This document shows positions 6,977 through 60,380 of a stretch of DNA of 64,000 nucleotides, one piece after another; position 1 is the stretch's first letter; each line of letters begins with the position of its first letter. The stretch covers positions 620,001 to 684,000 of the forward strand of contig NZ_BLLN01000003.1 of the NCBI RefSeq assembly GCF_011170125.1, written 5' to 3'. The notes beneath the pieces were generated by a model. That model was not told where the DNA came from. It did not search any database and saw nothing but the letters and a program-made list of their open reading frames with translations. The position numbers and the translations under genes are program-made. This DNA comes from Streptomyces diastaticus subsp. diastaticus. Lineage in GTDB: Bacteria > Actinomycetota > Actinomycetes > Streptomycetales > Streptomycetaceae.

Positions 6977-6984
6977 GGCTGAGT

Positions 6985-6990: not shown

Positions 6991-7063
6991 GACGTGCTTC
7001 GCTGTCCCGTACACGCCAAGACCAGCCGCGTGGGGAGAGTTCGCCCGCTCGTCGGCCGGAAGT

Positions 7064-7106
7064 CGCCTGCGCGCCGGGGGCGGGCCCCGCCCCCGGCGCG
7101 CAGGCG
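7064..7106 (-). terminator. Near-perfect 43-base palindrome, transcription terminator
   Basis: A 21-base-pair perfect stem (7064-7084 with 7086-7106) around a single central base begins seven bases after the stop of the thioredoxin-fold gene. It is one of the most stable hairpins in the window. It should terminate transcription coming from 7931 before it enters the phoD promoter. Confidence 0.8.
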
Positions 7107-7112
7107 GCCGGA

Positions 7113-7931: not shown

Positions 7932-8022
7932 GGGTGTGCTCTCCGTGTGGGACGTGGCTATGGGGGTGACCGGATCATGGCCGGTGGGAGCCCCGTCGCG
8001 CCATGGCCCGGAAGGGCCGGCG

Positions 8023-8706
8023 TCAGACGGGGAGGGGACCGGCCGGAGGGCCCCGGCGGCCCACGCAGTGCGCGATGAGCAGCGCCGGGCGTCCGGCCGG
8101 GCCCGTCTCGGGCCCCACCCGGCCGGAACCGGGCGCCGGCGGCGCCGGGACCCGCGCCACGGCCAGCCCGAGCGGGCGGAACGCCTGCGCGGCGGCGGCC
8201 CGCAGCACCTGGGCCAGGGCCCGCTCGCCGTACCGCAGCCAGGCGGCGGCCAGCAGGCCGACGCCGACGTGTGCCCCGAGCAGCAGCCAGGCCAGCTCGG
8301 GCCGGGGGTGTGCGGAGGGCGCCTCGGCGGGCGCTCCCAGCAGCCTGGCCAAGGGCGCGCCGAGGGCGCCGCCACCGCAGAGCAGGTCGACGCCGACGGT
8401 GCGCAGGGGGCCCGCGACCGGGCCGCCCGTCGTGCCGTAGCAGACGTGCTGGCCCGCGGTGAAGACGGTGTCGGCGGCCAGCTCCAGGGGCACCAGCAGG
8501 GCCGCGATCCGGCCGAACCCGCGCTCGCGGGACGCCAGGGACCAGGCCAGGGCGAAGACGGTCGCCCCCACCAGGGCCACGGTGACCAGCGGGAGCGGGG
8601 CTCCGGAGAGAAGGACGTGGGAGGTGGTGGACAGGGTGACCGCGAGCACGGTGAACAGCGCCGCGCGCACGAGGCGCGGCGCTGTCTGGGCTATCGGGGT
8701 GTCCAC
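8023..8706 (-). CDS. Hypothetical integral membrane protein
   Basis: A 227-residue protein with about five hydrophobic segments, at roughly residues 12-32, 38-56, 65-83 and two more in the second half. The C-terminal part is Pro/Gly-rich. I do not recognise a domain. It lies upstream of the thioredoxin-fold gene on the same strand with a 91-base gap, so it could share a transcript with it. Its start faces dnaE across a 510-base divergent gap. Its coding statistics look normal for the genome, so I treat it as a real gene of unknown function. Confidence 0.7.
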   Translation of the reverse strand: MDTPIAQTAPRLVRAALFTVLAVTLSTTSHVLLSGAPLPLVTVALVGATVFALAWSLASRERGFGRIAALLVPLELAADTVFTAGQHVCYGTTGGPVAGPLRTVGVDLLCGGGALGAPLARLLGAPAEAPSAHPRPELAWLLLGAHVGVGLLAAAWLRYGERALAQVLRAAAAQAFRPLGLAVARVPAPPAPGSGRVGPETGPAGRPALLIAHCVGRRGPPAGPLPV

Positions 8707-36697: not shown

Positions 36698-37512
36698 GCG
36701 GGAACATCGAGCTGCTGGAAGACACCCTGGCCCGGACGCGCGAGGAGGGCCGCGCCGCCCTCATCGCCTACCTGCCCGCCGGGTTCCCCACCGTCGACGG
36801 CTCCATCGAGGCGATCAAGGCCGTCCTCGACGCGGGCGCCGACATCGTGGAGGTCGGGCTGCCGCACAGCGACCCGGTCCTCGACGGGCCCGTCATCCAG
36901 ACCGCCGACGACATCGCCCTGCGCGGCGGCCTGAAGATCGCCGACGTGCTGCGCACCGTCCGCGAGGCCCACCAGGCCACCGGCAAGCCCGTCCTCGTCA
37001 TGACGTACTGGAACCCGGTCGACCGCTACGGCGTCGACCGGTTCGCCCAGGAGCTGGCCGACGCGGGCGGCGCCGGGTGCATCCTGCCCGACCTGCCGGT
37101 GCAGGAGGCGGACCCGTGGCGCGAGCACGCCGCCAAGCACGGCCTCGCCACCGTCTTCGTCGTCGCCCCCAGCAGCCGCGACGCCCGGCTGGCCGAGATC
37201 ACCGCCGCGGGCTCCGGTTTCGTCTACGCGGCCTCCCTGATGGGTGTCACCGGCACCCGCGACTCCGTCGGCGAGCAGGCCCGCGCCCTGGTGGAGCGGA
37301 CCCGCGCCGCCGGGCCGCTGCCGGTCTGCGTCGGCATCGGCGTCTCCGACGCGGCCCAGGCCGCAGAGGTCGCCGAGTTCGCCGACGGCGTCATCGTCGG
37401 CTCCGCCTTCGTCAAGCGGCTGCTCGACGCCCCCGACGCGGCCGCCGGCCTCGACGCCGTCCGCGCCCTCACCGCCGAGCTGGCCGGAGGCGTCCGCCGC
37501 CGCACCGGCTGA
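36694..37512 (+). CDS. trpA: Tryptophan synthase alpha chain
   Basis: A 272-residue barrel protein. The catalytic Glu and Asp are in [21 protein letters not shown], and phosphate-binding loops are in the MGVTGTR and GIGVSD blocks. It cleaves indole-glycerol phosphate and passes indole to TrpB. The GTG start overlaps the trpB stop. It is the last gene before a strong terminator. Confidence 0.97.
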
Positions 37513-37590
37513 ACCGGGCATCCCGGGGGCGCGCCGGACCGTACGGCGTTCGCACGCCCGGCGCGTTCCCTCACCCGAAGGGGTGGACCT

Positions 37591-37626
37591 CGACCCGGAC
37601 CGGCGCATACGCGCCGGTCCGGGTCG
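37591..37626 (+). terminator. Strong terminator of the trpCMBA operon
   Basis: A perfect 16-base-pair stem (37591-37606 with 37611-37626), a 4-base loop ATAC and a short TTTG tail lie 78 bases after trpA and 12 bases before the next start. It is a near-textbook intrinsic terminator. Confidence 0.9.
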
Positions 37627-37637
37627 TTTGTCCGGAC

Positions 37638-38414
37638 GTGAGTGAGAAGAACCGTGAGGGAAAGCGTGCCGCCCGCGAGCGGCTGAAGGCCGAGCGCGCC
37701 AAGGAAGAGGCGCGGAACAAGCGCCGCCGGGGGCTGGTGGTCGGCGGCGCGGTGGTGGGTGTGCTCGCCCTGGCCGCCGCCGTCGGCGTCATCGCGGCCA
37801 ACGCGGGCAGGACCGAGAAGCAGGCGGGACCGGTCGTCGCCCCGAAGGGCGCCGCCGGCGAGGACGGCCTCGCCATCCCCGTCGGTGACGCCTCTGCCAA
37901 GTCCACCCTGGTCATCTGGGAGGACTTCCGCTGCCCGGCCTGCGCCAACTTCGAGAACACCTACCGTTCGACCATCCACGAGCTGACCGAGAAGGGGCTG
38001 CTGAAGGTCGAGTACCACCTCGCCACCCTGATCGACGGCAACATGCGCGGCGAGGGCTCGCACCGCGCCGCCAACGCCGCGGTCTGCGCGCAGGACGCCG
38101 GGAAGTTCCCCGAGTACCACGACGTCCTCTTCGCCAACCAGCCGCTGGAGACCGAGGACGACTTCGGCAGCAACGACCGGCTGCTGGAGCTGGCCGGGAA
38201 GGTCGACGGCCTGGTCACCCCCGCCTTCCGCTCCTGCGTCGAGGACGGTGAGCACGACGCGTGGGTGGCCGAGTCGGACAAGGCCTTCCAGAAGGGCAAC
38301 TTCCCCGGCACCCCGACCGTGCTGCTCAACGGCGAGAGCGTCTTCGGAGACCAGAAGAACCCCCTCACCCCCGCCAAGCTCAGGCAACTGGTGGAGGAGG
38401 AGGCCGGGGCCTGA
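37638..38414 (+). CDS. Membrane-anchored DsbA-like thioredoxin-fold protein (CPAC)
   Basis: A 258-residue protein starting at GTG 37638. It shares its plan with the 7113-7931 protein: a basic tail (1-31), one membrane segment (32-54) and an outer thioredoxin_4 domain. The active site CPAC is at residues 99-102 in IWEDFRCPACANFEN. A cis-Pro loop PGTPTVLLNGE follows near the end, and one further Cys pair is present (CAQD and SCVED). It probably acts in disulfide formation of exported proteins. It directly follows the trp terminator, and lgt is 116 bases downstream. Confidence 0.92.
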   Translation: MSEKNREGKRAARERLKAERAKEEARNKRRRGLVVGGAVVGVLALAAAVGVIAANAGRTEKQAGPVVAPKGAAGEDGLAIPVGDASAKSTLVIWEDFRCPACANFENTYRSTIHELTEKGLLKVEYHLATLIDGNMRGEGSHRAANAAVCAQDAGKFPEYHDVLFANQPLETEDDFGSNDRLLELAGKVDGLVTPAFRSCVEDGEHDAWVAESDKAFQKGNFPGTPTVLLNGESVFGDQKNPLTPAKLRQLVEEEAGA

Positions 38415-38514
38415 CCCGGGGCCGGCAGCCGCCCCCGGCGCCGCACGGGGGAAGCGCCGGCCCCGTTATGGAGCCGTTGCCCGGCCGGGGACCCCGTCCC
38501 CGCGCCGGGCACGG

Positions 38515-38520
38515 TAGCGT
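38515..38520 (+). promoter_or_regulatory. -10 box of lgt
   Basis: TAGCGT lies ten bases before the lgt ATG, with no ribosome binding site; a leaderless or near-leaderless transcript is likely. Confidence 0.4.
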
Positions 38521-38530
38521 CGGGTCTGCC

Positions 38531-39484
38531 ATGGACCTTGCCTATATCCCCAGCCCCTCGCACGGTGTGCTCTACCTGGGCCCCGTACCGTTGCGCGGCT
38601 ACGCGTTCTGCATCATCATCGGCGTCTTCGTGGCCGTCTGGTACGGCAACCGGAGGTGGGTCGCGCGGGGCGGCCGCTCCGGCACCGTCGCCGACATCGC
38701 CGTGTGGGCGGTGCCCTTCGGCCTCGTCGGCGGACGGCTCTACCACGTCATCACCGACTACCAGCTCTACTTCGGTGAGGGCCGCGACTGGGTGGACGCC
38801 TTCAAGATCTGGGAGGGCGGCCTCGGCATCTGGGGCGCCATCGCGCTCGGTGCCGTCGGCGCCTGGATCGGCTGCCGCCGCCGCGGCATCCCGCTCCCGG
38901 CCTACGCCGACGCCCTCGCCCCCGGCATCGCCCTCGCCCAGGCCATCGGCCGTTGGGGCAACTGGTTCAACCAGGAGCTCTACGGCCGCGCCACCGACCT
39001 GCCCTGGGCGGTGAAGATCACCAGCGTCGACGGCGGCCGGGTCCCCGGCACCTACCACCCGACCTTCCTCTACGAGTCGCTGTGGTGCGTCGGCGTCGCC
39101 CTCCTGGTGATCTGGGCCGACCGCCGCTTCAAGCTCGGCCACGGCCGAGCCTTCGCCCTGTACGTCGCCTCCTACTGCGCCGGGCGCGCCTGGATCGAGT
39201 ACATGCGGGTCGACGAGGCCCACCACATCCTCGGCCTGCGGCTCAACGTCTGGACGGCGCTCATCGTCCTCGTCCTGGCCATCGCCTACATCGTGGTCTC
39301 GGCGCGGCTGCGCCCCGGCCGCGAGGAGATCGTCGAGCCGGCCGCGGCCGAGGACGACGGGATCACCGGCTCCGGCGACCAGGACGCCGACTCCGCCGGC
39401 ACCGAGTCCGCCGACACCGCCGCGGCAGGCGCGGGCAGCGGCAAGGGCCCCCGCAAGAGTCCGGGGAAGACCGGCAAGGACTGA
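38531..39484 (+). CDS. lgt: Prolipoprotein diacylglyceryl transferase
   Basis: A 317-residue inner-membrane enzyme with seven hydrophobic segments. It moves diacylglycerol from phosphatidylglycerol to the lipobox Cys of pre-lipoproteins. The signature IGRWGNWFNQELYG and the Lgt blocks GGRLYHVITDY and FLYESLW are intact. The last 60 residues are acidic then basic (Asp/Ala/Lys-rich), a tail usual in Streptomyces Lgt. It ends in a hairpin facing the minus-strand lyase operon. Confidence 0.96.
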   Translation: MDLAYIPSPSHGVLYLGPVPLRGYAFCIIIGVFVAVWYGNRRWVARGGRSGTVADIAVWAVPFGLVGGRLYHVITDYQLYFGEGRDWVDAFKIWEGGLGIWGAIALGAVGAWIGCRRRGIPLPAYADALAPGIALAQAIGRWGNWFNQELYGRATDLPWAVKITSVDGGRVPGTYHPTFLYESLWCVGVALLVIWADRRFKLGHGRAFALYVASYCAGRAWIEYMRVDEAHHILGLRLNVWTALIVLVLAIAYIVVSARLRPGREEIVEPAAAEDDGITGSGDQDADSAGTESADTAAAGAGSGKGPRKSPGKTGKD

Positions 39485-39499
39485 CCCGGACCGACCTGC

Positions 39500-39538
39500 C
39501 GAAGGCCGCCGCCTCCCCCGAGGAAGCGGCGGCCTTCG
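39500..39538. terminator. Bidirectional terminator between lgt and the ARH operon
   Basis: A 13-base-pair perfect stem (39500-39512 with 39526-39538) around a 13-base loop lies 16 bases after lgt and 23 bases after the last gene of the minus-strand operon. Confidence 0.75.
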
Positions 39539-39560
39539 CCGTCGCAGGGGCCCGCGCGGC

Positions 39561-40430
39561 TCAGCCCCGGCGCGCCCCCAGCGCCAGCGTGCGCCGGGCC
39601 GCCGCGACCACCGCCGCGTCCACGAACCGGCCGTCGGGGAGGGCCTGCGCCCCCGCCTCGGCGGCGGCCGCCGCGACGATCTCCTCGGCCGCGGCCACCT
39701 CGGCCGGCCGCGGCAGGTAGGCCCGTTCGATCACCGGGAGCTGGCGCGGGTGGATCGCCGCCCGCCCCAGGAAGCCCAGCGCCCGCCCCCGCGCGCAGGA
39801 GGCCGCGAGCCCCGCCTCGTCCCGGACGTCCGGGTGGACCGACTGCACCGGCGCGTCCAGTCCCGCCGCCCGGCACGCCACCACCACCCGGCCGCGCGCC
39901 CAGTCCAGCCCCGCCTCCTCCCGCATCCCGAGGTCGGCCCGCAGGTCGGCCTCGCCCAGCGCCAGCCCCCGCACCGCCGGATGGGACCGGGCCACCGCGT
40001 AGGCCCGCTCGACGCCGAGCGCCGACTCCAGGAGCGCCCACAGCGGCGGCACCCGGAGACCGGCGCCCGACCCGTCGGCCTCCCGGGGCAGCGCCGCCAG
40101 CTCCGCGTACGCCACCACGTCCTGCGGCGAGGCGACCTTCGGCAGCCGGAGCCCGCCCAGCCCCGGCAGCCCGGCCAGCGCCCGTGCGTCCGCCTGGCCC
40201 CAGGCGCCGGCCAGCGGGTTGACGCGGACGTGGACCGGCACCGGCTGCGGCGCCGAGAGCAGTTCGGCCGTGGCCCGGCGGGCGTACTCCTTGCGGCCGG
40301 GCGCGACGGCGTCCTCCAGGTCGACGAGGACCACGTCCGCGCCCGAGCAGAGCGCCTTCGCGACGGTGTCGGGCCGGTCCCCGGGCGCGTAGAGCCAGGT
40401 CAGCCAAGGTCCGGCCGGGCCGGCGCTCAT
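39561..40430 (-). CDS. CitE-like CoA-ester lyase (HpcH/HpaI family)
   Basis: A 289-residue barrel enzyme. VLVDLEDAVAPGRK holds the Glu/Asp that bind Mg2+, HVRVNPL the Arg, LPKVASPQDV the next strand and PLWALLESALGV the second metal Glu. Relatives cleave or form beta-hydroxyacyl-CoA esters such as citramalyl-, malyl- or HMG-CoA. Its ATG overlaps the CoA-transferase stop (ATGA), so the two are coupled. It is the last gene of a seven-gene operon with ADP-ribosylglycohydrolases. The pair could activate an acid to its CoA ester and then split it. The substrate is unknown. Confidence 0.9.
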   Translation of the reverse strand: MSAGPAGPWLTWLYAPGDRPDTVAKALCSGADVVLVDLEDAVAPGRKEYARRATAELLSAPQPVPVHVRVNPLAGAWGQADARALAGLPGLGGLRLPKVASPQDVVAYAELAALPREADGSGAGLRVPPLWALLESALGVERAYAVARSHPAVRGLALGEADLRADLGMREEAGLDWARGRVVVACRAAGLDAPVQSVHPDVRDEAGLAASCARGRALGFLGRAAIHPRQLPVIERAYLPRPAEVAAAEEIVAAAAAEAGAQALPDGRFVDAAVVAAARRTLALGARRG

Positions 40431-41659
40431 ACCGCGCCCGCCGCCCGCAGTGCCGCCACCTCGGCCGGGGCGTACCCGGCCTCGGTGAGCACCGCGTCGG
40501 TGTCGGCGCCGTGGGCCCGGCCGCTCCAGCGGATCGCGCCGGGGGTGCCGGTCAGCCGGAACAGCACGTTCTGCATCCGCAGCGGCCCGAGGTCGGGGTC
40601 GTCGACCTCGGCGAGGGTGCCGAGCGCCGCGTACTGCGGATCGGTCATCACCTCCCGCACGTCCTGCACGGGCGCCGCCGCCGCCTCCGCCTTGTCGAAG
40701 GCGGCCAGCACGTCCTCCCGGGGGTGCCGGGCGATCCAGGAGCCGACCGCCTCGTCCAGCTCGTCGGCGTGGGCCGCCCGGCCCGCGCCGTCCGCGAACC
40801 ACGCCTCCTCGGCCAGCTCGGGCCGCCCGACCAGCGTCATCACCCGCTCGGCGACGGACTGGGCGGAGGTGGAGACGGCCACCCAGGAACCGTCGGCGGT
40901 CCGGTAGGTGTTGCGGGGCGCGTTGTTGACCGAGCGGTTGCCGGTGCGCGGCTGGACGTGGCCGAGCTGGTCGTACCAGAGAGGGTGCGGGCCGAGCGCG
41001 GTCAGGATCGGCTCGATGAGGGCGAGATCCACCACCTGGCCCTCACCGGTGCGGTCCCGGCCGGCGAGGGCCGCCATGACCGCGTAGGCGGTCGCGATGC
41101 CCGCGATCGAGTCGGCGAGGCCGAACGGCGGCAGCGTCGGCGGCCCGCCCGGCTCCCCGGTGATCGCCGCGAAACCGCTCATCGCCTCCGCCAGCGTCCC
41201 GAACCCCGGCCGGTGCGCGTACGGCCCGAACTGGCCGAAGGCCGTCACCCGGGCCAGCACCAGCCGCGGGTTGGCCGCGCTCAGCTCCTGCCAGCCCAGT
41301 CCCCAGCGCTCCAGGGTGCCCGGCCGGAAGTTCTCCACCACCACGTCGGCGCCGGACACCAGCCGCAGCAGCGCCTCGCGGCCGCCGCCGGTCGACAGGT
41401 CCAGGGTGAGGGTGCGCTTGTTGCGGCCGAGAAGCTTCCACCACAGGCCGTGGCCGTCCCTGGCGGGCCCGTGGCCCCGGGACGGGTCGGGACGGCGCGG
41501 ATGCTCCACCTTCACCACGTCCGCCCCGAAGTCGCCGAGCAGGGTGGCGGCCAGCGGACCGGCGAAGAGCGTGGCGAGGTCCAGCACCCGCAGCCCGGTC
41601 AGCGGACCGTACGCCGTGCCGCCCGCCGGCCGTCCGTCCGCGTCCGGCGCGGTCGTCAC
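40427..41659 (-). CDS. CaiB/BaiF family CoA-transferase
   Basis: A 410-residue class III CoA-transferase. Family blocks are LRVLDLATLFAGPLAATLLGDFGADVVKVEHP at the N-terminus, VVENFRPGTLERWGLG, FGQFGPYAHRPGFGTLAEAMSGF and GEGQVVDLALIEP in the middle. It moves CoA between carboxylic acids. The GTG start overlaps the PfkB kinase stop in GTGA, and its stop overlaps the lyase start. Position between a sugar kinase and a CoA lyase is unusual and suggests one catabolic route. The acid is unknown. Confidence 0.93.
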   Translation of the reverse strand: MTTAPDADGRPAGGTAYGPLTGLRVLDLATLFAGPLAATLLGDFGADVVKVEHPRRPDPSRGHGPARDGHGLWWKLLGRNKRTLTLDLSTGGGREALLRLVSGADVVVENFRPGTLERWGLGWQELSAANPRLVLARVTAFGQFGPYAHRPGFGTLAEAMSGFAAITGEPGGPPTLPPFGLADSIAGIATAYAVMAALAGRDRTGEGQVVDLALIEPILTALGPHPLWYDQLGHVQPRTGNRSVNNAPRNTYRTADGSWVAVSTSAQSVAERVMTLVGRPELAEEAWFADGAGRAAHADELDEAVGSWIARHPREDVLAAFDKAEAAAAPVQDVREVMTDPQYAALGTLAEVDDPDLGPLRMQNVLFRLTGTPGAIRWSGRAHGADTDAVLTEAGYAPAEVAALRAAGAV

Positions 41660-42510
41660 GAGGCCACCGCCGCGCAGCGGGCGTCGATCTCGGCCCGGTA
41701 CGGCGACGAGGCGCCCGCGCCGGGCCGCCCCGCCGACAGAGCGGCCGCCGCCGTGGCCCACTCCAGGGCCGGCGCCATCGGCCGGCCCTCGCCCACGGCC
41801 ACCGTCAGCGCGGCCGCGAAGACGTCGTCTGCGCCCGCCGCGTCCACCACCCTCACCTCGGGCCCCGGCACCACCGTCGGCTCCCCGCCGCGCACCGCCC
41901 ACAGGCAGCCCGCCGTCCCCAGCGTCACGACCGCCTCGGGGACCAGCTCCAGCAGCGCGCGCACCGACCGGTACGGCTCGGCGCGCCCGGACAGCGACGC
42001 CGCCCCGTCCTCGTCCACGACCAGCAGGCCGGTCGCCGCGAGCAGTTCGTCCGGCGGCGGGCACACCGGTGACGGCGCCAGCACCGTCCGCACCCCCCGC
42101 CCGCCCGCGGCCCGGGCGGCCGCGGCCACCCCGGGCAGCGGGGTGTCCGCCGACAGGAGCAGCACGTCGGCGGTGCCGATCAGCGCCGCGTCGGCCGGAT
42201 GGGTGCCGGTCGGCGCCGCGTCCGCGCCCGGCACCACCACGGCGCGGGAGCCCGCCCGGTCCTGGGCGACCCGGGCGGTGCCGCTCGGCCCCGGAACCGT
42301 CCGCAGCAGCTCCACGCCGACGCCCTCACGCACCAGCCCGGCCCGCAGCCGCTCGCCGTACGCACCGGTGCCCACCGCCCCCACCAGCGACACCGCCGCT
42401 CCGGCCCGGGCCGCCGCCACCGCCTGCCGCGCGCCCCGGCCGCCCGGCGACCCGTCGGCGCGGGCGCCGGGCTCCTCCTGCACACTGCCGAACACCACGA
42501 TGTGGGTCAT
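41656..42510 (-). CDS. PfkB/ribokinase-family carbohydrate kinase
   Basis: A 284-residue kinase. The N-terminal GSPGGRGARQAVAAARAGAAVSLVG is the family's substrate-side motif. The catalytic block near residue 220 reads DAAGADDVFAAALTVAVG. In most members this is GAGD; here it is GADD, keeping the catalytic-base Asp but replacing the anion-hole Gly. The kinase would phosphorylate a sugar or nucleoside; ribose released by the ADP-ribosylglycohydrolase paralogues upstream is an attractive idea. Overlaps of four bases join it to genes on both sides. Confidence 0.9.
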   Translation of the reverse strand: MTHIVVFGSVQEEPGARADGSPGGRGARQAVAAARAGAAVSLVGAVGTGAYGERLRAGLVREGVGVELLRTVPGPSGTARVAQDRAGSRAVVVPGADAAPTGTHPADAALIGTADVLLLSADTPLPGVAAAARAAGGRGVRTVLAPSPVCPPPDELLAATGLLVVDEDGAASLSGRAEPYRSVRALLELVPEAVVTLGTAGCLWAVRGGEPTVVPGPEVRVVDAAGADDVFAAALTVAVGEGRPMAPALEWATAAAALSAGRPGAGASSPYRAEIDARCAAVAS

Positions 42511-43883
42511 ACGGTTCTGGCCTCCTGGAGGGTGAGTGCCGCGAGGGTGTCGAAGCCGACGCCGTCGAACCCGGCGACGGCCGTGCTGAGCCGGTTCTTC
42601 AGGGGCGCCGTCCACCGTTCGCCCAGCGCGTCGGGGTGTCCGGCGAGCAGCCCGGCCACCGAACCGGCGGTGGCGCCGTTGGAATCGGTGTCCCAGCCGC
42701 CGGAGACCGCCCGGGTCACCGCCCCGGCGAACGCGCCGCCGGAGTGGGTGAGGGCCGCCGCGACCAGCGCCGCGTTCGGCACCACGTGCACCCAGTGGTA
42801 CCTCCCGTACTCCTCGTGCAGCCGGTCCACCACCGTTGCGAAACCGGCCTCCGCGGAGGCCAGTTCGCGCCCGCGTCGCACCGCCCGGGCCAGCCGCGAG
42901 TCGGGCGGGACCACGCCGAGGCCCGCGTCGAGGCACCCGTGCACGTCGCTGCGGCCACCCGCCGCCTCGGCGATCACCGCCGCCGCGAACATCGCCCCGT
43001 AGACGCCGTTGCCCGTGTGGGTGAGGACCGCGTCGCGGTGCGCCTGCTCGGCCGCGGCCGCCGGGTCCCCCGGCCGGGTCCAGCCGTGCACGTCGGCCCG
43101 GATCAGCGCGCCGATCCACTCCCGGAAGGGGTTGCGCCGCCGGGCGGTCTCCGGCGGCTCCACCCCCGACAGCAGGTTGCGGTAGGCGACCCGCTCGGCG
43201 GTGAAGGTCCGCCCGGCCGGCAGCTCGTCCAGCCAGAGCCGCGCCAGGTCGCCGGTGGTGAACTCCCGTCCGTGGCGCCGGATCAGTTCCAGGGCCAGCA
43301 GGGAGTGGTCGAGGTCGTCGTCGGGCGGCATCCCGTCGATGTTCTCGGCCAGGGAGTTCTCCGCGCTGCGCCGGTTCCACGGGTGGGCGCGGGCCAGCTC
43401 GGACGGCAGCCCGCGCGCGGTGAAGTACCCGGTGAGCGGCCAGTTCCCGGTCGCCCGGGCCAGTTCCCGGATCGCCGCCAGCTCCAGCTTCTCCACCGGC
43501 TTGCCGAGCAGACACCCCGCGGCCCGGCCCAGCCACGCCGCGTGCAGCCGGTCGCCGAGGCCGGGAGCGAGGCGGTCAGGGCCCGGCGGCGCGGGCCAGA
43601 GCGGACAGGCCGCCCGGATCGCGGTGAAGCCGGTCGGCTCCCGGGTCTCGGTCGAGCGGGGCAACGCGTCGAGCTGGTCGAGGAGTTCCTCCGCGAGTTC
43701 CCGCAGCCTGGGCGAGGCGGGCACCGGCGAGGCGCCGCCGCGCCCGGGGGTCTCGGGCCCGCCGGCCGCCAGCCAGCGGGCCCGTGCCTCCGTGGTGTCG
43801 CGGCCCTCCTCGTCGCACTGGCGCAGCTCGTGCCCGATCAGGTCCTCCGGCTGCGTCCAGGTGACGCGCAGCGGCGCGTTCAC
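42507..43883 (-). CDS. ADP-ribosylglycohydrolase family protein, fourth paralogue
   Basis: A 458-residue member of the ARH/DraG superfamily with an extra N-terminal region of about 105 residues. The first metal motif is PDDDLDH (about 187-193) in place of the usual TDDT. The last is GWDTDSNGATAGS near residue 395, fully canonical. GNGVYGAMFAAAV and HVVPNAALVAAAL are further family blocks. The family removes ADP-ribose or a related ribosyl group from N- or O-linked substrates using two Mg2+ ions. The GTG start overlaps the third paralogue's stop, and its own stop overlaps the kinase start. Confidence 0.93.
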   Translation of the reverse strand: MNAPLRVTWTQPEDLIGHELRQCDEEGRDTTEARARWLAAGGPETPGRGGASPVPASPRLRELAEELLDQLDALPRSTETREPTGFTAIRAACPLWPAPPGPDRLAPGLGDRLHAAWLGRAAGCLLGKPVEKLELAAIRELARATGNWPLTGYFTARGLPSELARAHPWNRRSAENSLAENIDGMPPDDDLDHSLLALELIRRHGREFTTGDLARLWLDELPAGRTFTAERVAYRNLLSGVEPPETARRRNPFREWIGALIRADVHGWTRPGDPAAAAEQAHRDAVLTHTGNGVYGAMFAAAVIAEAAGGRSDVHGCLDAGLGVVPPDSRLARAVRRGRELASAEAGFATVVDRLHEEYGRYHWVHVVPNAALVAAALTHSGGAFAGAVTRAVSGGWDTDSNGATAGSVAGLLAGHPDALGERWTAPLKNRLSTAVAGFDGVGFDTLAALTLQEARTV

Positions 43884-45055
43884 GCGCCCGGCCCCGGGTC
43901 CGCGACCGGCCCGCCGGTCAGCGCGGCGAACGCCTCGGCGTGGGACCGGTGCCGGGCCCGGTCCCGGGCGAAGACCTCCCGCGCCACCTCGGCCAGCCGC
44001 AGGGCCGGGCCCTGAAGGTCGAGCCTGCTCGCCTGGGCGACCTGCTCGGCCCACTGCCCGGGCACCGATCCCGCGCCGCCGAGCGCGCCCGCCACGGCGC
44101 CGCCCATGGTGGCGATCGAGTCGCAGTCCCGCCCGTAGTTGACCGCGCCCAGCACGGTCCGCCGGTAGTCACCCTCGCCCACCACCAGCATCCCGAGCGC
44201 CACCGGCAGTTCCTCGATGGCGTGCAGCCGGGAGGGCCGGCGGGCGCCGAGGGAGGGGGCGCGGTAGTCGGGGCCGACCGTGTCGAAGGGGGCGACGGCT
44301 CGCCGCAGCGGTTCCAGCGCCGTCTCGAAGTCCCGGTGCTCCGCGGCCACTTCGCAGACCGCCTCGATCGCGGCGCGGGTGCCGTCCTTGGCCAGCGCAA
44401 GGCAGGTGCCGACCACCGAGGAGACGGTGGCGCCGGGCGCGCAGGCCGCCGCCACCGCCGCCGCGAACACCCCGGCCGCCTCCCGCCCGTACGAGGACTG
44501 GTGCGGTGCCGCCACCTCCAGCGCCTCCGCGTACGCGGCCTCGGGGCGGGCGGCGTTGACCAGGCCGACCGGCGCCATGTACATCGCGGCCCCGCAGTTG
44601 ACGATGTTCCCCGCGCCCGCCTCGCGCGGGTCGACGTGCCCGTAGTGCACCCGGGCCACCAGCCACTTCTCGGCCAGGAAGACCCGCTGGAGCGGCAGCG
44701 CGGACGCCTCCAGCTCCGGGATCCACCGGGGCTCGCCGATCATCCGGGGCACCAGGTGCGTGGCGACGGCGTACGCGTCGAGGTGGTCGCGGACCTCCTC
44801 GTACACCTCGATCAGCAGACGGGTCATCAAGGTGTCGTCGGTGACGTGCCCGTCGCCCTTGTGGTACGGCGCGATGGGACGGGCGGTGCGCCACTGATCG
44901 TGCCAGGGTCCGACGATGCCGCCGACCCGGCCGCCGTGCCGCCGGCTGATCTGCTCGGGCGTCCAGCCTTCGACGGGGCCGCCCAGCGCGTCGCCGACGG
45001 CCGCGCCGACGAGGCTGCCCGTGATCCGGTCGTCCAGGGTCGATGTGAGCGTCAT
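43880..45055 (-). CDS. ADP-ribosylglycohydrolase family protein, third paralogue
   Basis: A 391-residue ARH/DraG protein with all main metal-site motifs: SLVGAAVGDALGGPVEG at 14-30, HVTDDTLM at 70-77 and NYGRDCDSIATMGG near 305-318. These are the classical G-D-A, T-D-D-T and G-x-D-x-D-S/T sequences. It is likely an active magnesium-dependent ribosyl-hydrolase. ATG 45055 lies seven bases after the second paralogue's stop; its own stop overlaps the fourth. The substrate may be ADP-ribosylated protein, nucleic acid or a small ribosyl compound. Confidence 0.94.
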   Translation of the reverse strand: MTLTSTLDDRITGSLVGAAVGDALGGPVEGWTPEQISRRHGGRVGGIVGPWHDQWRTARPIAPYHKGDGHVTDDTLMTRLLIEVYEEVRDHLDAYAVATHLVPRMIGEPRWIPELEASALPLQRVFLAEKWLVARVHYGHVDPREAGAGNIVNCGAAMYMAPVGLVNAARPEAAYAEALEVAAPHQSSYGREAAGVFAAAVAAACAPGATVSSVVGTCLALAKDGTRAAIEAVCEVAAEHRDFETALEPLRRAVAPFDTVGPDYRAPSLGARRPSRLHAIEELPVALGMLVVGEGDYRRTVLGAVNYGRDCDSIATMGGAVAGALGGAGSVPGQWAEQVAQASRLDLQGPALRLAEVAREVFARDRARHRSHAEAFAALTGGPVADPGPGA

Positions 45056-45062
45056 GCCCGAA

Positions 45063-46259
45063 TCATCCCCCCGGAGTGCCTCCGTCCCCCGGTACGAGCC
45101 GCCCGGCGAGTTCCACCAGATCGGTCCCGGCCAGCCAGGGCAGCGCACACCCCGACAACGTCCGGCACGCCTGCCGCCAGCTCTCCGGCAGGGCCGAGGG
45201 GCCCGCGAGCGCGCCGGTGAGCGCGCCGGTCAGCGCGGGCGCCGAGTCGGCCACCCGGGACAGGCAGGCGGCCGCCGGGACCGCGACCGCCGGGGAGCCG
45301 TCCGCCGCCACCGCGAGGGCGAGCGCCACGGGCACCGTCTCGGCGGCGGCGATCCCGTAGCTGTAGACGTGGTCGACGATCCGGTGCTCCAGCAGCGGCA
45401 CCAGCCCGAACGCGCCGCCGGTGTCGCGGGCCCGCCGGGCGAGGCCGAGCGCCTGCCGGGCATTGCGCCCGATCTCGGTGGCGGCGGGCAACTGGGCGAG
45501 GGCGAGCCGGGCCGCCTCCTGGGGCCCGGCGCCTGCGAGCGCACCCGCCAGCGCCGCCGCCATCGCCCGTGCCCCGTGCACGCCGTCACCGTCCTGGGTG
45601 TAGCGGGCGTCGAACTCGGCGAGGTCGGCGGCGGCCGCCGGATCACCCGGACGGGCCAGTGCGAGCACACAGGCCCGGACGCAGGCGGCGTCGTCGAAGT
45701 AGTGCGGGTTGTCGTGGCCGGTGGCGGGCGGGCCGAGGCCCGCCGCGAGGTTGCCGAGCCCCGCGCGGACCGAGATGCGGGCCCGCAGCGGCAGCACCGC
45801 CGACTCGACCTCGGGGGCGTCGGCGGACGCCTCGGCCACCTCGGCGGCCAGCCGCCGCCAGGCGGCGTCGACGGCGGCCCGCACCCCGCCGGCGAGGGCC
45901 GCCCCGGCCACCAGGTTCAGCGCGGTGAAGGCGGCCCACTCGGCGTCGTCGGAGGGGCCGAGCCGCAGCGGTTCGGGCGGCTGGTTGAGGGCGATCGGCA
46001 CCGGCAGGGTCGTGGTCGCGTTCTCCTCGGCGAAGGTGTCCAGCTCCCGGGTGAGCCGCCGGGTCCAGCGTGGCATCCGGGCCGCCCGGTGCCGGGCGGC
46101 GGGCCAGCCCGCGGCGTCCCCCGCGGCGAGGCCCAGCAGCGTCGCCTCGACGCGGGCGGCCAGGTCGGGACCGGCGGCGGCAGGAGCCGGCAGGGGAGCG
46201 GCGGTGACGGCGGGCAGGGCTTCGCCGGGCTCGGGGGCGGGCCCCTCCAGCGGGCTCAC
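45063..46259 (-). CDS. ADP-ribosylglycohydrolase-like protein, divergent second paralogue
   Basis: A 398-residue protein that follows the ARH fold but with weakened motifs. LLGLAAGDAAGWP (41-53) is recognisable. The first metal motif is PSDDAEW at 102-108. The C-terminal motif is SRVADSAPALTG, where the first Gly and first Asp of GxDxDS are lost. It may have altered metal binding, be inactive, or assist the other paralogues. The GTG start overlaps the first paralogue's stop (GTGA). Its length and neighbours argue for retention, not decay: the frame is intact. Confidence 0.87.
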   Translation of the reverse strand: MSPLEGPAPEPGEALPAVTAAPLPAPAAAGPDLAARVEATLLGLAAGDAAGWPAARHRAARMPRWTRRLTRELDTFAEENATTTLPVPIALNQPPEPLRLGPSDDAEWAAFTALNLVAGAALAGGVRAAVDAAWRRLAAEVAEASADAPEVESAVLPLRARISVRAGLGNLAAGLGPPATGHDNPHYFDDAACVRACVLALARPGDPAAAADLAEFDARYTQDGDGVHGARAMAAALAGALAGAGPQEAARLALAQLPAATEIGRNARQALGLARRARDTGGAFGLVPLLEHRIVDHVYSYGIAAAETVPVALALAVAADGSPAVAVPAAACLSRVADSAPALTGALTGALAGPSALPESWRQACRTLSGCALPWLAGTDLVELAGRLVPGDGGTPGG

Positions 46260-47404
46260 GGCCGGGCTCCGGCCGGGGTGCGGCCGGCCGCCGGCTCTGG
46301 GGCGGGCCCGGTCGAAGCGCGCGCGCCGAGCCGCCGCAGCGCCCGGTCGGCGCGGCCCGCGAGCGCCTCCTCGGGCAGGTCGGGGCAGTGTCCGACGGGG
46401 GAGTGGCGGGCCGGTTCCTCCGGGTCGGGGGTGAGGAGGTCGGCGACGTCCAGGACGTGCAGGCCCGCCATGGACGGCAGGCAGGAGCCCCGTACCGGCC
46501 CGATCCGCGCGGCCCACTCGGCGGGGACCGCCGCCGCCCCGCCCAGCGCCCCGGCGAGTGCCCCGGCCACGGCGGCGGTGGTGTCGGCGTCACGGCCCAT
46601 GTTGACGGCGGTCAGCACGGCGGCCGGGAAGACCCCGCGGGCGGCGGCCAGCGCCCCGAAGGCGAGGCCGACCGCCTCGGGGGCGAGGTCGGTCCACGGG
46701 TAGCCGCCGATCACCACGGCCGAGCGGACCGCCCGCTCGCCCCGGTCGGCGGCGGCCACCGCCCGCCTGAGCGAACGGGCCGTCCACGAGTCGTCGGGGA
46801 CCACCGACAGGGCGGCGGTCACCACGCCGTCGGTGCTCGCGCCGCCCATCGCCGCCGCGACCCCGGCGGCGACGGCCTGGCCGCCGTAGATGCCCTCGCC
46901 CTCGTGGCTGACGCCGCCGTCGACGGCGACCAGCCGGGCCGCCTCCTCGGGCCGGCCCGCCGCGAAGACGCCGAACGGGGCCGCGCGCATCGCCAGGCCG
47001 TCGCTCCAGGCGTGCCGGTGCTGGGCGGTGATCGGGGCGGTCAGGCCGCGCCGCAGGTTCTCCAGGGTGCCGCGCTCGCTGAACCCGGCGCCCCGGAACG
47101 GCCCCTCGTCGAGGTCGGCGATCCACCGGTGCCAGGCCGCCTCCACCCGGGCGGTGGTCAGCCCCGAGCCGTACCGGGCGAGGAGCAGCCCGGAGAAGAT
47201 CGCGTACTCGGTGTCGTCGGTCCCGGCCGGGTGCTCGGCGACGTATCCGGTGATGCGGCCCCAGCGGCGGCGGATCTCGGAGGGCTTCAGGTTCTCTGCC
47301 GGGGCGCCCAGCGCGTCGCCGACGGCCAGGCCGAGCAGGGCGCCCCGGCCCCGCTCGCGCAGGGCGGCGGGGAGCGGGAGGGTCGGGCGGGTCGGTGCCA
47401 CCAT
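46256..47404 (-). CDS. ADP-ribosylglycohydrolase family protein, first paralogue
   Basis: A 382-residue ARH/DraG protein and the first gene of the operon. ATG 47404 has GAGAGG seven bases upstream. Motifs are complete: GLAVGDALGAPAENL at 25-39, AGTDDTEYA at 60-68 and NMGRDADTTAAVAG near 268-281. It should hydrolyse a ribosyl bond with two Mg2+. The AENLKP and GRITGY sections recall bacterial members that act on small molecules instead of on nitrogenase reductase. The gene starts a chain of seven genes with 4-base overlaps at five of six junctions. Confidence 0.93.
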   Translation of the reverse strand: MVAPTRPTLPLPAALRERGRGALLGLAVGDALGAPAENLKPSEIRRRWGRITGYVAEHPAGTDDTEYAIFSGLLLARYGSGLTTARVEAAWHRWIADLDEGPFRGAGFSERGTLENLRRGLTAPITAQHRHAWSDGLAMRAAPFGVFAAGRPEEAARLVAVDGGVSHEGEGIYGGQAVAAGVAAAMGGASTDGVVTAALSVVPDDSWTARSLRRAVAAADRGERAVRSAVVIGGYPWTDLAPEAVGLAFGALAAARGVFPAAVLTAVNMGRDADTTAAVAGALAGALGGAAAVPAEWAARIGPVRGSCLPSMAGLHVLDVADLLTPDPEEPARHSPVGHCPDLPEEALAGRADRALRRLGARASTGPAPEPAAGRTPAGARP

Positions 47405-47781
47405 CGCGGGCCTCTCTGGGACGGGCCGCGCGGACCGGGGACCGGGCCGGCGGGCATCGCGGGCTTCGTGGCCTGTCAGGGACGGCCGCCGCGCCCCGGG
47501 TCCTCGCCGGGAGGGCGGGCGTGGCGGCGGGTCCTGGGCGATGTGTGCCACGCGGGCCGCACCCCTGCCGCGCACGGCGCCTGTTTCTCACTCCTTCGGC
47601 ACCTTCCCGGGGTGCGTACGGCCGCCCGCCGCCAGGTGGCCGGCTGGTCACCGTGCGTACGGAAGCGCAGGTAAGTACGGCCTTCCTTGCTGGCAGGCGG
47701 CGATTTTCGAGCGTACTTTCGATCATGTGAGGGCCGGGTGGCACCAGGGACGCCCGGCCGGCGAGAGAGGGGCTCACGGCA
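47405..47781. promoter_or_regulatory. Divergent promoter region, ARH operon and VIT1-like gene
   Basis: This 377-base gap holds no gene. From 47605 to 47730 it is AT-richer than its surroundings. It contains GTGCGTACGG twice (47612-47621 and 47653-47662) and TTTCGA twice (47705-47710 and 47717-47722). These direct repeats are candidate regulator sites. No convincing iron box or other named operator was found. Confidence 0.4.
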
Positions 47782-48513
47782 GTGGCGTTCATCGACAACG
47801 AGGCGGCGCTCCACGGGGCGCACCGGGACAACCACACCCATCGCGACGTCAACGGCGGCTGGCTGCGGCCCGCGGTGTTCGGCGCGATGGACGGCCTGGT
47901 CTCCAACCTCGCGCTGATCACGGGCGTGGCCGGCGGCTCGGTGGCGCAGCAGACGATCGTGCTGACCGGCCTGGCGGGGCTCGCCGCCGGCGCGTTCTCG
48001 ATGGCCGCGGGGGAGTACACCTCGGTCGCCTCCCAGCGGGAGCTGGTCGAGGCGGAGGTCGCCGTGGAGCGCCGTGAGCTGCGCCGGCACCCCCGCGACG
48101 AGGAGGCGGAGCTGGCCGGGCTGTACGTCTCGCGCGGCGTCGAGCCGAAGCTCGCCCGCGAGGTGGCGCGGCAGCTCTCGGCCGACCCGGAGCAGGCGCT
48201 GGAGATCCACGCCCGCGAGGAACTGGGCGTCGACCCGGGTGACCTGCCCTCGCCGACGGTGGCCGCCGTCTCGTCGTTCGGGGCGTTCGCGGTGGGCGCG
48301 CTGCTGCCGGTGCTGCCGTACCTGCTGGGGACGGACGCGCTGTGGCCGTCCGTGGCGCTGGCGCTGGCCGGGCTGTTCGGCTGCGGGGCGCTGGTGGCCC
48401 GGGTGACGGCGCGCCCCTGGTGGTTCAGCGGGCTGCGCCAGCTGGCTCTCGGTGCCGCCGCCGCCGGTGTGACGTACCTCCTGGGCAGCCTTTTCGGCGC
48501 GAGCCTGGGGTGA
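47782..48513 (+). CDS. VIT1/CCC1-family transporter
   Basis: A 243-residue membrane protein starting at GTG 47782 after a GAGAGAGGGG ribosome binding site. The first helix holds RPAVFGAMDGLVSNLALITGVAGG and the second AGAFSMAAGEYTSVASQRE, the diagnostic blocks of the plant/yeast vacuolar iron transporter family. A charged, Glu/Arg-rich loop (about 85-150) forms the cytoplasmic metal-binding region. Three more helices follow. Homologues move Fe2+ or Mn2+, usually out of the cytosol. It is divergent from the ARH operon and 292 bases before gltB. Confidence 0.9.
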   Translation: MAFIDNEAALHGAHRDNHTHRDVNGGWLRPAVFGAMDGLVSNLALITGVAGGSVAQQTIVLTGLAGLAAGAFSMAAGEYTSVASQRELVEAEVAVERRELRRHPRDEEAELAGLYVSRGVEPKLAREVARQLSADPEQALEIHAREELGVDPGDLPSPTVAAVSSFGAFAVGALLPVLPYLLGTDALWPSVALALAGLFGCGALVARVTARPWWFSGLRQLALGAAAAGVTYLLGSLFGASLG

Positions 48514-48543
48514 GCCGGTATGCGGGAGCCCGCATAGTATTTC

Positions 48544-48570
48544 GTTACCCGGCGGTTTCAATTGTTTGAC
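48544..48570 (-). promoter_or_regulatory. Possible GlnR-binding site upstream of gltB
   Basis: Read on the minus strand, the order is GTCAA, 6 bases, GAAAC, 6 bases, GTAAC. This matches the gTnAC-n6-GaAAC spacing of GlnR half-sites known from Streptomyces nitrogen genes. A second weaker pair, GTAAC-n6-AAAAT, lies at 48725-48740, about 66 bases before gltB. The whole 292-base region is AT-richer than the genome, as expected for a promoter. Confidence 0.5.
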
Positions 48571-48805
48571 GACGGGGCATGAGCCGTACGCGCCGCGGGC
48601 AAGGAAGCCCCTCGCGTCCGGACCCGAGGTGTCGAACCGCCGCGCAGGTCCCTCCTGGTCACCCAGCTCCGCGGTGTCCGCATGATGGAACGGGTCATCC
48701 GTTTACCGAGATGCGTCTCATCATGTAACTTGCTGAAAATTTCGCAGAGGGCCAACGTCGTCCCTCGGCACCTTGCATATGCCACTGACGACGACGGGAG
48801 AGCCG

Positions 48806-53408
<4,603 letters not shown>

Positions 53409-55041: not shown

Positions 55042-55965
55042 TCATCCGGCGACGTGGAACCGCTCCCCGTAGATCTCCCAGCTCAGCGGCGTCGAGAGCG
55101 TCAGGTTGCCGTTCCGCAGGAAGACCCGCTGGGCGGTGTCGATGCGGGAGGTGTCCCGCTGGAACCGCTTGCCCTCGCGGATCACCGCACGCCGCGCGTC
55201 GAGGAACGCCTCCAGGTACGCCCGCTCGTCGCCGCCCGCCGCCTTCGTCTCCGCCTTCTTCAGAGCCGCCGCACGGACGCCGTAGAAACTGTCGGCGCCC
55301 TTGCCGGGACCGTGCAGCAGCATCGCGTCGTAGTAGACGAACTGGCCCAGCGTCCCCAGGCCGTCGATCTTCGCCATCCGCACCGCCGGCGCGAAGTACC
55401 GCTCGTCGCGCTCCCGCTCCTGTGCCGTCCGGAACGCCGGGACCTCCGCCTCCGCCTCCCACGCCTCGGTGAAGCCCTCCAGCCCCGCCAGGGAGTCCGA
55501 GCCGTCCACCTCGCGCAGCGCCGGCAGGTAGCGGGCGAGGCCGTTGTCCGGGTGGTCCTTCGTGTACCGCTCGACCAGGCCCAGCAGATCGTGGGTGCCG
55601 GTGCAGAAACCGGCGATGCCCGCCGTGTAGCCGCGCCCGTCCTCCAGGTCCTCGATGTAGCCGTAGAGGGTGCGCCACTTCAGCGTCGAGTTGTCGGCGC
55701 TCGCCACCAGCTGGAGGGCCAGCTCCTTCTTGCCGGGCGCGGCGAGGCCGGCGGGCATGGCGGCGATCCGCTCCTCCGTCTCACGGTCCGCCTCGTCGGC
55801 GTCGCCGTCCCCGGCCGCGCCGTCGTCCGCACCGCGCGCCGCGGCCGGCGCCGAGGGGCCCGACTCGCCGGGTACGCGGCCCGCGTCGGGGTCCGGGCTG
55901 AGGAGGAAGACCGCCGCCGTCGCCAGCGGGGCGAGAGCGAGCACCACACAACCAACACGCTTCAT
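55042..55965 (-). CDS. GH46 chitosanase with Asp at the catalytic acid position
   Basis: A 307-residue exported protein starting at ATG 55965. Residues 1-22 are a signal peptide or anchor and an acidic linker follows (about 24-65). The rest aligns along its whole length with Streptomyces GH46 chitosanase (N174 type). YIEDLEDGRGYTAGIAGF holds Asp109, equal to the catalytic base Asp40, and Thr114, equal to Thr45. The acid/base Glu22 of N174 (in SAENSS) is Asp91 here (in SADNST). QFVYYDAMLLHGPG and FLDARRA are conserved. A TACGCT box seven bases upstream suggests a leaderless gene. It may have low activity or a different substrate. Confidence 0.92.
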   Translation of the reverse strand: MKRVGCVVLALAPLATAAVFLLSPDPDAGRVPGESGPSAPAAARGADDGAAGDGDADEADRETEERIAAMPAGLAAPGKKELALQLVASADNSTLKWRTLYGYIEDLEDGRGYTAGIAGFCTGTHDLLGLVERYTKDHPDNGLARYLPALREVDGSDSLAGLEGFTEAWEAEAEVPAFRTAQERERDERYFAPAVRMAKIDGLGTLGQFVYYDAMLLHGPGKGADSFYGVRAAALKKAETKAAGGDERAYLEAFLDARRAVIREGKRFQRDTSRIDTAQRVFLRNGNLTLSTPLSWEIYGERFHVAG

Positions 55966-55972
55966 CCGCCCA

Positions 55973-55978
55973 AGCGTA
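55973..55978 (-). promoter_or_regulatory. -10 box of the chitosanase gene
   Basis: TACGCT on the minus strand lies seven bases before the ATG, with no ribosome binding site. Confidence 0.4.
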
Positions 55979-56103
55979 CGGACCCTCACCCGTCCGGCCG
56001 ACCGCTCCCGGTGATCTTGACCGATCCGGTACGGCGCCCGCGGGCGCCCCGGCCGCGCCGGGCGCCGCTCGCGGCGTCCCGCCGGGAACGGGGCGCACCG
56101 TGT

Positions 56104-56109
56104 TAGGCT
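56104..56109 (+). promoter_or_regulatory. -10 box upstream of the cold-shock gene
   Basis: TAGGCT would start a transcript near 56116. The cold-shock ATG is 183 bases downstream of the box, so any such message has a long leader. No -35 match is obvious. Confidence 0.45.
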
Positions 56110-56115
56110 GGGAGA

Positions 56116-56184
56116 CGTTGCAGTTGTGGTACCCATGATCCTTATGTGCGCCTGACGAGAACTCGCTCAGGCGCATTATTGTTT
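56116..56184 (+). ncRNA. Candidate short leader RNA or sRNA before the cold-shock gene
   Basis: Between the TAGGCT -10 box and a terminator hairpin lies a stretch of about 69 bases with no ribosome binding site and no ORF of note. TGCGCCTGA (56147-56155) pairs with TCAGGCGCA (56167-56175), followed by TTATTGTTT. It could be an independent small RNA or an attenuator controlling the cold-shock gene. The start and end are inferred from sequence only. Confidence 0.45.
56147..56184 (+). terminator. Intrinsic terminator in the cold-shock leader
   Basis: A 9-base-pair perfect stem and an 11-base loop are followed by a U-rich tail (TTATTGTTT). U tracts are rare in this genome, which makes this signal stand out. 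Confidence 0.7.
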
Positions 56185-60263: not shown

Positions 60264-60380
60264 GAGCCGACGATCCCCGCAGCGGGCTCGCGCCGCAACG
60301 CCAGTTCCGCGGTCGCGGCCGGTGCGGGCGGGGTGCCGTCCCACTCCTCGGGCAGCCCCTCCGGAGCGGCCCGGCCCGCG

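Follow-up and report, generated by a model that had tools for sequence, protein, structure and literature searches.

The 64,000-nucleotide stretch of Streptomyces diastaticus subsp. diastaticus analysed here (the window; positions 620,001 to 684,000 of contig NZ_BLLN01000003.1) carries a run of seven genes coding for four ADP-ribosylglycohydrolase (ARH) paralogues, numbered ARH1 to ARH4 in gene order, a PfkB-family kinase, a CaiB/BaiF coenzyme A (CoA)-transferase and a CitE-like lyase. Our preferred reading, which we hold tentatively and put slightly short of an even chance, is that these genes would be the enzyme half of an old actinobacterial operon for the catabolism of a ribose conjugate, and that the core retained in Streptomyces would work on some other supply of substrate. 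Three observations are new here: a conserved Asp of the metal site is lost in ARH2; the importer and regulator found in relatives are mostly not beside the operon in Streptomyces; and the kinase is repeatedly missing in that genus and eroded in the clade of the window. The seven genes are as follows.

ARH1: 46256-47404, minus strand; PF03747 (Pfam 195.1 bits), metal motifs TDDTEY and GRDADT.
ARH2: 45063-46259, minus strand; PF03747 (Pfam 113.4 bits), SRVADS at the D-x-D site.
ARH3: 43880-45055, minus strand; PF03747 (Pfam 174.8 bits), motifs TDDTLM and GRDCDS.
ARH4: 42507-43883, minus strand; PF03747 (Pfam 168.1 bits over residues 115-416), N-terminal extension of ~110 residues.
PfkB kinase: 41656-42510, minus strand; PF00294, 128.7 bits against a cut-off of 25.8.
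CaiB/BaiF family III CoA-transferase: 40427-41659, minus strand; PF02515, 413.6 bits against a cut-off of 23.3.
CitE-like (HpcH/HpaI) C-C lyase: 39561-40430, minus strand; PF03328, 124.7 bits against a cut-off of 25.

The open reading frames lie where an earlier annotation made from the DNA letters (the original prediction) had placed them, and the Pfam families agree with those it named, as all seven proteins exceed the curated cut-offs (26.2 bits for PF03747). Its junctions also proved correct, with 4-base overlaps at ARH1/2, ARH3/4, ARH4/PfkB, PfkB/CaiB and CaiB/CitE and a gap of 7 bases at ARH2/3; from these overlaps the seven genes are presumably co-transcribed. The whole genome holds seven places that match PF03747, four of which are in this operon.

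To follow the block in relatives, ARH4 was searched against 128 class-level, 396 phylum-level and 81 family-level genomes (overlapping samples), with 46 stretches fetched, and ARH2 was searched against named genomes, for which the best 80 of 301 confirmed places were used (the named loci: 78 titled Streptomyces, one [Kitasatospora] papulosa and one Actinacidiphila). Among the class-level loci with a full-length ARH4 orthologue, the window excluded, CaiB and CitE are adjacent in 16 of 17 and the kinase in 14 of 17, two loci (L038 and L040) being without the kinase only. Further orthologous loci (L068-L078) have CaiB-CitE in 11/11 and the kinase in 9/11 cases. Two of the named loci end before CaiB; the remaining 78 all have CaiB-CitE, and 64 of them have the kinase. 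Over all loci readable past ARH4, this gives 105/106 for CaiB-CitE and 87/106 for the kinase, or 104/105 and 86/105 when L077 and L163, which come from one genome and form the sole identical pair of rows among the 106, are counted once; most of the 105 are close relatives and the counts are not independent. The outcome that the original prediction had named as refuting it, ARH genes standing apart from the kinase and CoA genes in the majority of relatives, is thus not what is seen. The order ARH1-ARH2-ARH3-ARH4-kinase-CaiB-CitE recurs in other families amid different flanks, so the block is more than a chance arrangement and, judged by its distribution, is an old actinobacterial one. In readable cases among the named loci (best 80 of 301), overlaps of 4 bases occur at ARH1/2 in 63/77, ARH2/3 in 24/80, ARH3/4 in 49/78, ARH4/PfkB in 63/64, PfkB/CaiB in 47/56 and CaiB/CitE in 74/78, counted from the in-frame start nearest the upstream stop, a choice that favours overlaps.

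Outside Streptomyces the block is longer. The order found in relatives, which we take as ancestral, is a LacI-family regulator, two permeases and a solute-binding protein of an ATP-binding cassette (ABC) importer, ARH1, ARH2, ARH3, ARH4, ribokinase, CaiB and CitE. The regulator and sugar-type importer adjoin the operon in 14/14 distinct non-Streptomyces genomes (15 loci) with enough upstream sequence. In other families (f17 and f19) they precede ARH1 in 8/8 such loci (L045-L047 and L049-L053), L064 being from the same genome as L048 and showing the upstream part missing from the latter; in other genera of the same family they precede ARH1 in 7/7 loci from six genomes (L070, L073, L074, L076-L078 and L163, the last being from Actinacidiphila paucisporea, with its solute-binding protein matched at 7372-8619). 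By Pfam the upstream genes of L052 are LacI, SBP_bac_1 and two BPD_transp_1, and its binding protein is nearest to carbohydrate binders, with scores under their cut-offs.

The kinases of these relatives point to ribose. The ribokinase equivalog of NCBIfam (TIGR02152) has a cut-off of 299.65, and of the three operon kinases scanned, two pass (L053 with 310.0 and L049 with 307.7) and one narrowly misses (L051, 295.5). The window kinase scores 148.5 bits and its motifs are altered, GGKGAN to GGRGAR and AGDTF to ADDVF, both changes being unique among 89 aligned rows. All of the five nearest database proteins (P0241-P0245, of which P0241 is the window's own) are without GGKGAN, and P0242-P0244 retain the AGD of the second motif; the loss of GGKGAN therefore belongs to the clade and that of AGDTF to the line of the window. 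The window protein is also 16 residues shorter near the N-terminus than its nearest relative, P0242. Its mean identity to the named Streptomyces loci (best 80 of 301) is 0.204 below their own mean, whereas the other six genes are 0.013-0.039 below. Judged from these alignments, the PfkB kinase is derived from a ribokinase and is eroded in the window and its nearest relatives, so the working kinase step envisaged by the original prediction is not supported in this genome.

The four ARH proteins are not equivalent. All have the family's fold by profile or predicted structure, and the two-metal site, [T/S]DD with D-x-D-[T/S], is full in all rows of ARH1 and ARH3. In ARH1, D63, D64, D272, D274 and T275 are invariant in 103/103 aligned rows and the nearest solved relatives by sequence are DraG structures 2woe and 2woc; in ARH3 both Asp pairs are invariant in 109/109 rows. 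ARH4 has DDD in place of TDD and an intact D-T-D-S, with D188-D190, D398 and D400 invariant in 106/106 rows; it has no PDB match by sequence at 0.001, and its predicted model matches the folds of DraG and ARH3. Rows under fixed bit-score thresholds were omitted from these alignments (for ARH2, L062 passed and L063, which did not, was read by eye). The acidic residue that follows TDDT (TDDTE in ARH1) might have marked a branch not acting on ADP-ribose; this idea was dropped, as DraG has such a residue as well. In four loci (L076, L077, L078 and L163) ARH4 matches in two pieces ~250-280 bases apart, which suggests that its N-terminal extension is variable or holds an insert there.

ARH2 is the exception. 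In human ARH3, according to passages of one report, T76, D77, D78 and D316 hold Mg(A), while D314, D316 and T317 hold Mg(B); in the D314A mutant Mg(B) is gone, binding of ADP-ribose is 44-fold weaker and there is no activity on serine-linked mono-ADP-ribose (Ser-MAR), with some hydrolysis of poly(ADP-ribose) (PAR) left (PMC8141533). Aligning GGDTDT of mouse ARH3 with SRVADS of ARH2 makes V336 the counterpart of D314, D338 that of D316 and S339 that of T317. Position 336 is not Asp in 108/108 rows, including the window and L062, and D104, D105, D338 and S339 are retained; residue 103 is Ser in all rows but two, of which one has Gly and the other Thr. In L063 too, the D-x-D site of ARH2 is without its first Asp. 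The predicted model of ARH2 has the ARH fold, with low confidence in loops 80-100 and 181-187. A set of four equal hydrolases is not supported, as ARH2 is without the equivalent of Asp-314.

Two loci (L062, 7960-14358, and L063, 412-6833) have ARH1 and ARH2 alone, beside LacI, two permeases and a binding protein (by eye), and are a minimal form of the system. The conservation of a one-metal ARH2 next to an intact ARH1, together with this pairing, suggests from the alignments a heteromer in which ARH2 would probably serve ARH1 as a partner that has one metal or is non-catalytic. It would be a natural case, in more than one family, of an ARH paralogue that keeps one metal site and loses a ligand of the other.

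In the ancestral state envisaged by our preferred reading, the ABC importer would bring in the ribose conjugate and the ARH proteins would hydrolyse its ribosyl bond or bonds, ARH1 with ARH2 as its partner, and ARH3 and ARH4 acting on other linkages or intermediates. The ribokinase would trap the freed ribose as ribose 5-phosphate; CaiB would load CoA onto the acidic remainder, and CitE would split the CoA product. From an ADP-ribosylated target, the product set free by an ARH is ADP-ribose, which is no substrate for ribokinase and for which a Nudix enzyme would be expected instead; a downstream ribokinase fits the release of free ribose and thus argues for plain ribosides rather than ADP-ribose conjugates. 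The route sketched in the original prediction, in which a ribosyl bond is cut, the sugar phosphorylated and an acid processed through CoA, is partly supported: it gains from the relatives an importer with a LacI regulator and two of three kinases above the ribokinase cut-off, the CoA branch staying conjectural, and its kinase step is not supported for the window. There, the retained ARH-CaiB-CitE core would work on a substrate that the cell makes itself or takes up through a different transporter, any ribose being phosphorylated elsewhere or not at all. In gene content the ancestral unit looks like one for uptake and breakdown of a ribose conjugate and not a set of ADP-ribosylation erasers, a view favoured because an importer and regulator are present in relatives and no ADP-ribosyltransferase (ART) is found among the flanks scanned.

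That the ARHs are erasers after all, stripping ADP-ribose from cellular proteins, nucleic acids or small molecules, the role that the literature on SCO2028-SCO2031 assumes, while the kinase and CoA genes serve a separate function on a shared transcript, we regard as unlikely, and it has some evidence on its side. All four are PF03747 members, ARH1 aligns with DraG, and ARH1, ARH3 and ARH4 keep both Asp pairs; passages of two papers credit S. coelicolor with many putative hydrolases and some ARTs (PMC5087735, PMC9411070). Set against this is the lack of an adjacent ART already noted in the original prediction and borne out here: none is encoded among the ten flanking proteins scanned or by the VIT-family protein, and PF01129, the one ART family searched genome-wide, has no match. 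The heading of the block by a sugar importer and regulator in relatives and the linkage of CaiB-CitE in 104/105 distinct loci also speak against erasers. So do data from S. coelicolor, whose SCO2028-SCO2031 are very likely the same four ARH genes, to judge from gene order, flanks, the kinase-less locus of S. violaceoruber (L094) and the SCO numbers of the flanking genes. Purified SCO2028 and SCO2030 had no detectable activity on U-alpha-ADPr (U-ADPr), as stated in passages of PMC13036486.

Within Streptomyces the system has come apart. A match to ARH3 at 1e-100 is present in 51 of 71 genomes, with motifs intact in aligned rows, and absent from the other 20. An orthologue of the kinase (>=70% identity) is found in 41/51 ARH3-bearing genomes versus 1/20 of those without ARH3, and in 40 of these 41 the listed coordinates place it within ~3 kb of ARH3, so that this co-occurrence mostly reflects physical linkage. 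In the sole other case among the 41 genomes with both (G579), ARH3 (C1 8840764) and the ribokinase orthologue (8878054) are ~37 kb apart. The kinase is missing in several separate Streptomyces branches. On a tree of ARH3 and CaiB (106 rows, built by a quick method with 24/102 inner branches drawn open; L045, which has no CaiB, was omitted) its distribution needs at least nine changes, gains or losses, which we read mainly as losses because the outlying families have the kinase. In the 14 kinase-less named loci (best 80 of 301), ARH4 and CaiB overlap by 4 bases in 11 and are 97-392 bases apart in the other three.

In most Streptomyces examined, the operon has neither the importer nor the regulator next to it, and no LacI regulator or sugar ABC importer is among the flanking genes scanned in the window. 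By coordinates, an orthologue of the importer permease PermA lies near ARH3 in 4/51 ARH3-bearing genomes (G580, G603, G613 and G624); at the G580 locus (L164) LacI, importer, ARHs and CoA genes are present and the kinase is absent. Overall, PermA is found in 49/71 genomes, in 39/51 with ARH3, and elsewhere in the genome in 36/51. Its presence is weakly associated with that of ARH3 (p = 0.045, a rough value as the genomes are related). The possibility that the stand-alone PermA is the operon's own importer, relocated, was set aside because G624 holds both kinds and ARH3-less genomes also carry it (10/20); in G580, G603 and G613 PermA lies beside ARH3 only. Stand-alone loci (L165-L173) have PermA's permease and binding-protein partners and no ARH within the fetched stretch; we treat what they encode as a related transporter, though this is unproven. 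In L165-L172 this sugar-type ABC transporter is conserved in several Streptomyces, its PermA is 74-78% identical to that of the operon, and five of these loci have a glycosyltransferase-like gene (by eye) nearby.

A core that keeps its motifs, has no importer next to it and often has no kinase suggests that the present substrate in Streptomyces may be internal. This brings in metabolite repair, in which the Streptomyces core would clear an endogenous compound that is wrongly ribosylated or derived from NAD and would no longer feed the cell; the importer and kinase would then be lost while the ARHs, CaiB and CitE stay constrained. We consider it doubtful. The rarity of PermA near ARH3 (4/51), the repeated kinase changes and the presence of ARH3 in 51/71 genomes, with intact motifs in the rows aligned, fit such a role, but the PermA orthologue elsewhere in 36/51 genomes means that import may continue, and 20/71 genomes do without an ARH3 match altogether.

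A glycoside operon for a sugar other than ribose, with ARH-fold enzymes cutting another pentoside or hexoside and a kinase to match, is rather improbable: it can call on kinases under the ribokinase cut-off in L051 and the window, on solute-binding proteins that resemble oligosaccharide binders (under their cut-offs) and on ARH4-like loci with other sugar-related neighbours (L055 and L057, below), but operon kinases of two relatives pass the ribokinase cut-off and the ARH-fold proteins of known activity work on ribosyl linkages.

Twelve loci (L055-L061 and L079-L083) carry ARH4-like genes that are not part of such an operon. In L061 (439-7911) the gene is accompanied by LacI and permeases; in L080 (5935-10586) its neighbours are a solute-binding protein and permeases, and a ROK regulator and a Gfo/Idh oxidoreductase are encoded close by. 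It adjoins a DHDPS-family aldolase and an Opp-type ABC transporter in L055 (3487-10905), where a PfkB kinase lies nearby (a 240-residue piece scoring 179.8 against TIGR02152), and a SIS-domain protein in L057. We count the sugar-type genes at these four loci in favour of ribose-conjugate catabolism.

Several points weigh against ribose-conjugate catabolism as we have drawn it. In nine of these 12 loci the reference proteins for importer and kinase find no match. One class-level locus (L045, 1/17) has ARH1-ARH4 and the importer, and the 1.8 kb of its contig visible beyond ARH4 hold neither the kinase nor the CoA genes. Every equivalog cut-off is missed by the kinase, ARHs, CaiB and CitE of the window: for DraG (TIGR02662, 337.05) and Tri1 (NF041672, 490), ARH1 scores 67.8 and 41.9 and ARH3 39.5 and 45.4, and ARH2 and ARH4 have no match to either at E 0.001. 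Co-transcription in the window is deduced from overlaps. A close relative of the importer permease is absent from the window's genome (best 36%); with an eroded kinase as well, that genome gives no ground for claiming the complete pathway. PermA in 10/20 ARH3-less Streptomyces genomes means that it is not tied to the ARHs in those genomes, and among ARH3-bearing genomes its presence is not associated with that of the kinase (Fisher p = 1.0, again rough for related genomes). ARH2 may be active after all, by analogy with the PAR hydrolysis left in human ARH3 D314A. The ARTs of S. coelicolor listed in passages of PMC9411070 (SCO2860, SCO3953 and SCO5461) lie outside the neighbourhood, so an adjacent ART is not needed for an eraser, and the negative result for SCO2028 and SCO2030, in the passages of PMC13036486, concerns one ADP-ribosyl substrate only.

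The CoA enzymes are likewise assigned at family level. CaiB reaches no NCBIfam equivalog cut-off (best SucGlutTfsCaiB, 237.1 against 750), nor does the lyase (RipC 148.3 against 375; citE 130.4 against 443.4), whose best solved chain by sequence is 3qll. Between the kinase and CaiB, some loci of families f19 and f15 (L046, L047, L048, L049 at 6187-8226, L050 and L054) encode an extra protein of ~650 residues, in which a conserved N-terminal domain is fused to an FGE/SUMF1-like C-terminal domain. The N-terminal domain is without a match in Pfam (best E 0.11) and, among PDB sequences, without one better than E 0.064; the protein is possibly an additional enzyme of the pathway.

On the low-coordinate side the operon is flanked by trpC, trpB, trpA, a DsbA-like thioredoxin and lgt (trpB named from sequence by eye), and on the high side by the VIT-family protein, gltB and gltD (the latter two also by eye). 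An Rfam scan of 37000-49500 gave no match reaching gathering scores. ARH4 is 93% identical to a protein of S. albidoflavus and ARH2 91% identical to one of Streptomyces sp. CAI-21, and by these matches the organism belongs to the Streptomyces albidoflavus group. Farther along, on the minus strand, the window encodes a glycosyl hydrolase family 46 (chitosanase family) protein (55042-56136, Pfam 302.5 bits) and a protein with both ankyrin and HEAT repeats (58749-60344).

More broadly, the ARH fold may have a catabolic branch acting on plain ribose conjugates from ABC importers, with ARH1 and an ARH2 devoid of Mg(B) as an obligate pair and the Streptomyces core put to use on an internal substrate once importer and kinase had been lost; this wider proposal is speculative and we would sooner doubt than assert it. 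The label 'ADP-ribosylglycohydrolase' may then be misleading for the operon proteins, and several Streptomyces 'hydrolases' counted as evidence of rich ADP-ribosylation would be unrelated to it. The genus is cited as unusually rich in ADP-ribose hydrolases (passages of PMC5087735 and PMC13036486). Eight DraG/ARH homologues are listed for S. coelicolor (in a passage of PMC9411070), and the hydrolase-rich picture would change if half of them formed a ribose-conjugate pathway. SCO2028-SCO2031 appear as uncharacterised homologues (PMC9411070; three of them in PMC5087735), and the passages concerned treat them as single hydrolases and mention no operon, importer or ARH2 defect. In the open-access literature, searched for ARH together with a kinase, LacI/ABC or CoA enzymes and judged in part by title and the start of the abstract, no paper on such an operon was found.

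Compared with known systems, the CaiB-CitE pair recalls RipC or CitE with CaiB in itaconate and citramalate breakdown, which also joins a CoA-transferase to a C-C lyase, and among NCBIfam models RipC scores best for the lyase; unlike in that pathway, the lyase stays well under the RipC cut-off (148.3 against 375) and no further itaconate gene is in the operon. DraG and human ARH1 and ARH3 act on ADP-ribosylated targets made by ARTs or poly(ADP-ribose) polymerases (PARPs). They have the fold and metal motifs common to the operon ARHs, which differ from them in identity (~13-23% in structural alignments) and do not reach the DraG equivalog cut-off. ADPRHL1 (vertebrate Adprhl1), described in passages of PMC7390403, is a pseudoenzyme and, like ARH2, an ARH-fold paralogue that has lost metal ligands, whereas ARH2 has lost a single Mg(B) ligand, retains those of Mg(A) and has an intact ARH1 beside it in the same operon. 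Going by the description in passages of PMC10819704, a parallel in layout is E. coli yegTUV, where a transporter, the ARH-like YegU and the PfkB-type kinase YegV form one operon of genes without a clear assigned function; in contrast to the actinobacterial block, it has a single ARH, a nucleoside-symporter-type transporter, a GntR regulator and no CoA enzymes, and has been linked to ADP-glucose and glycogen (PMC10819704).

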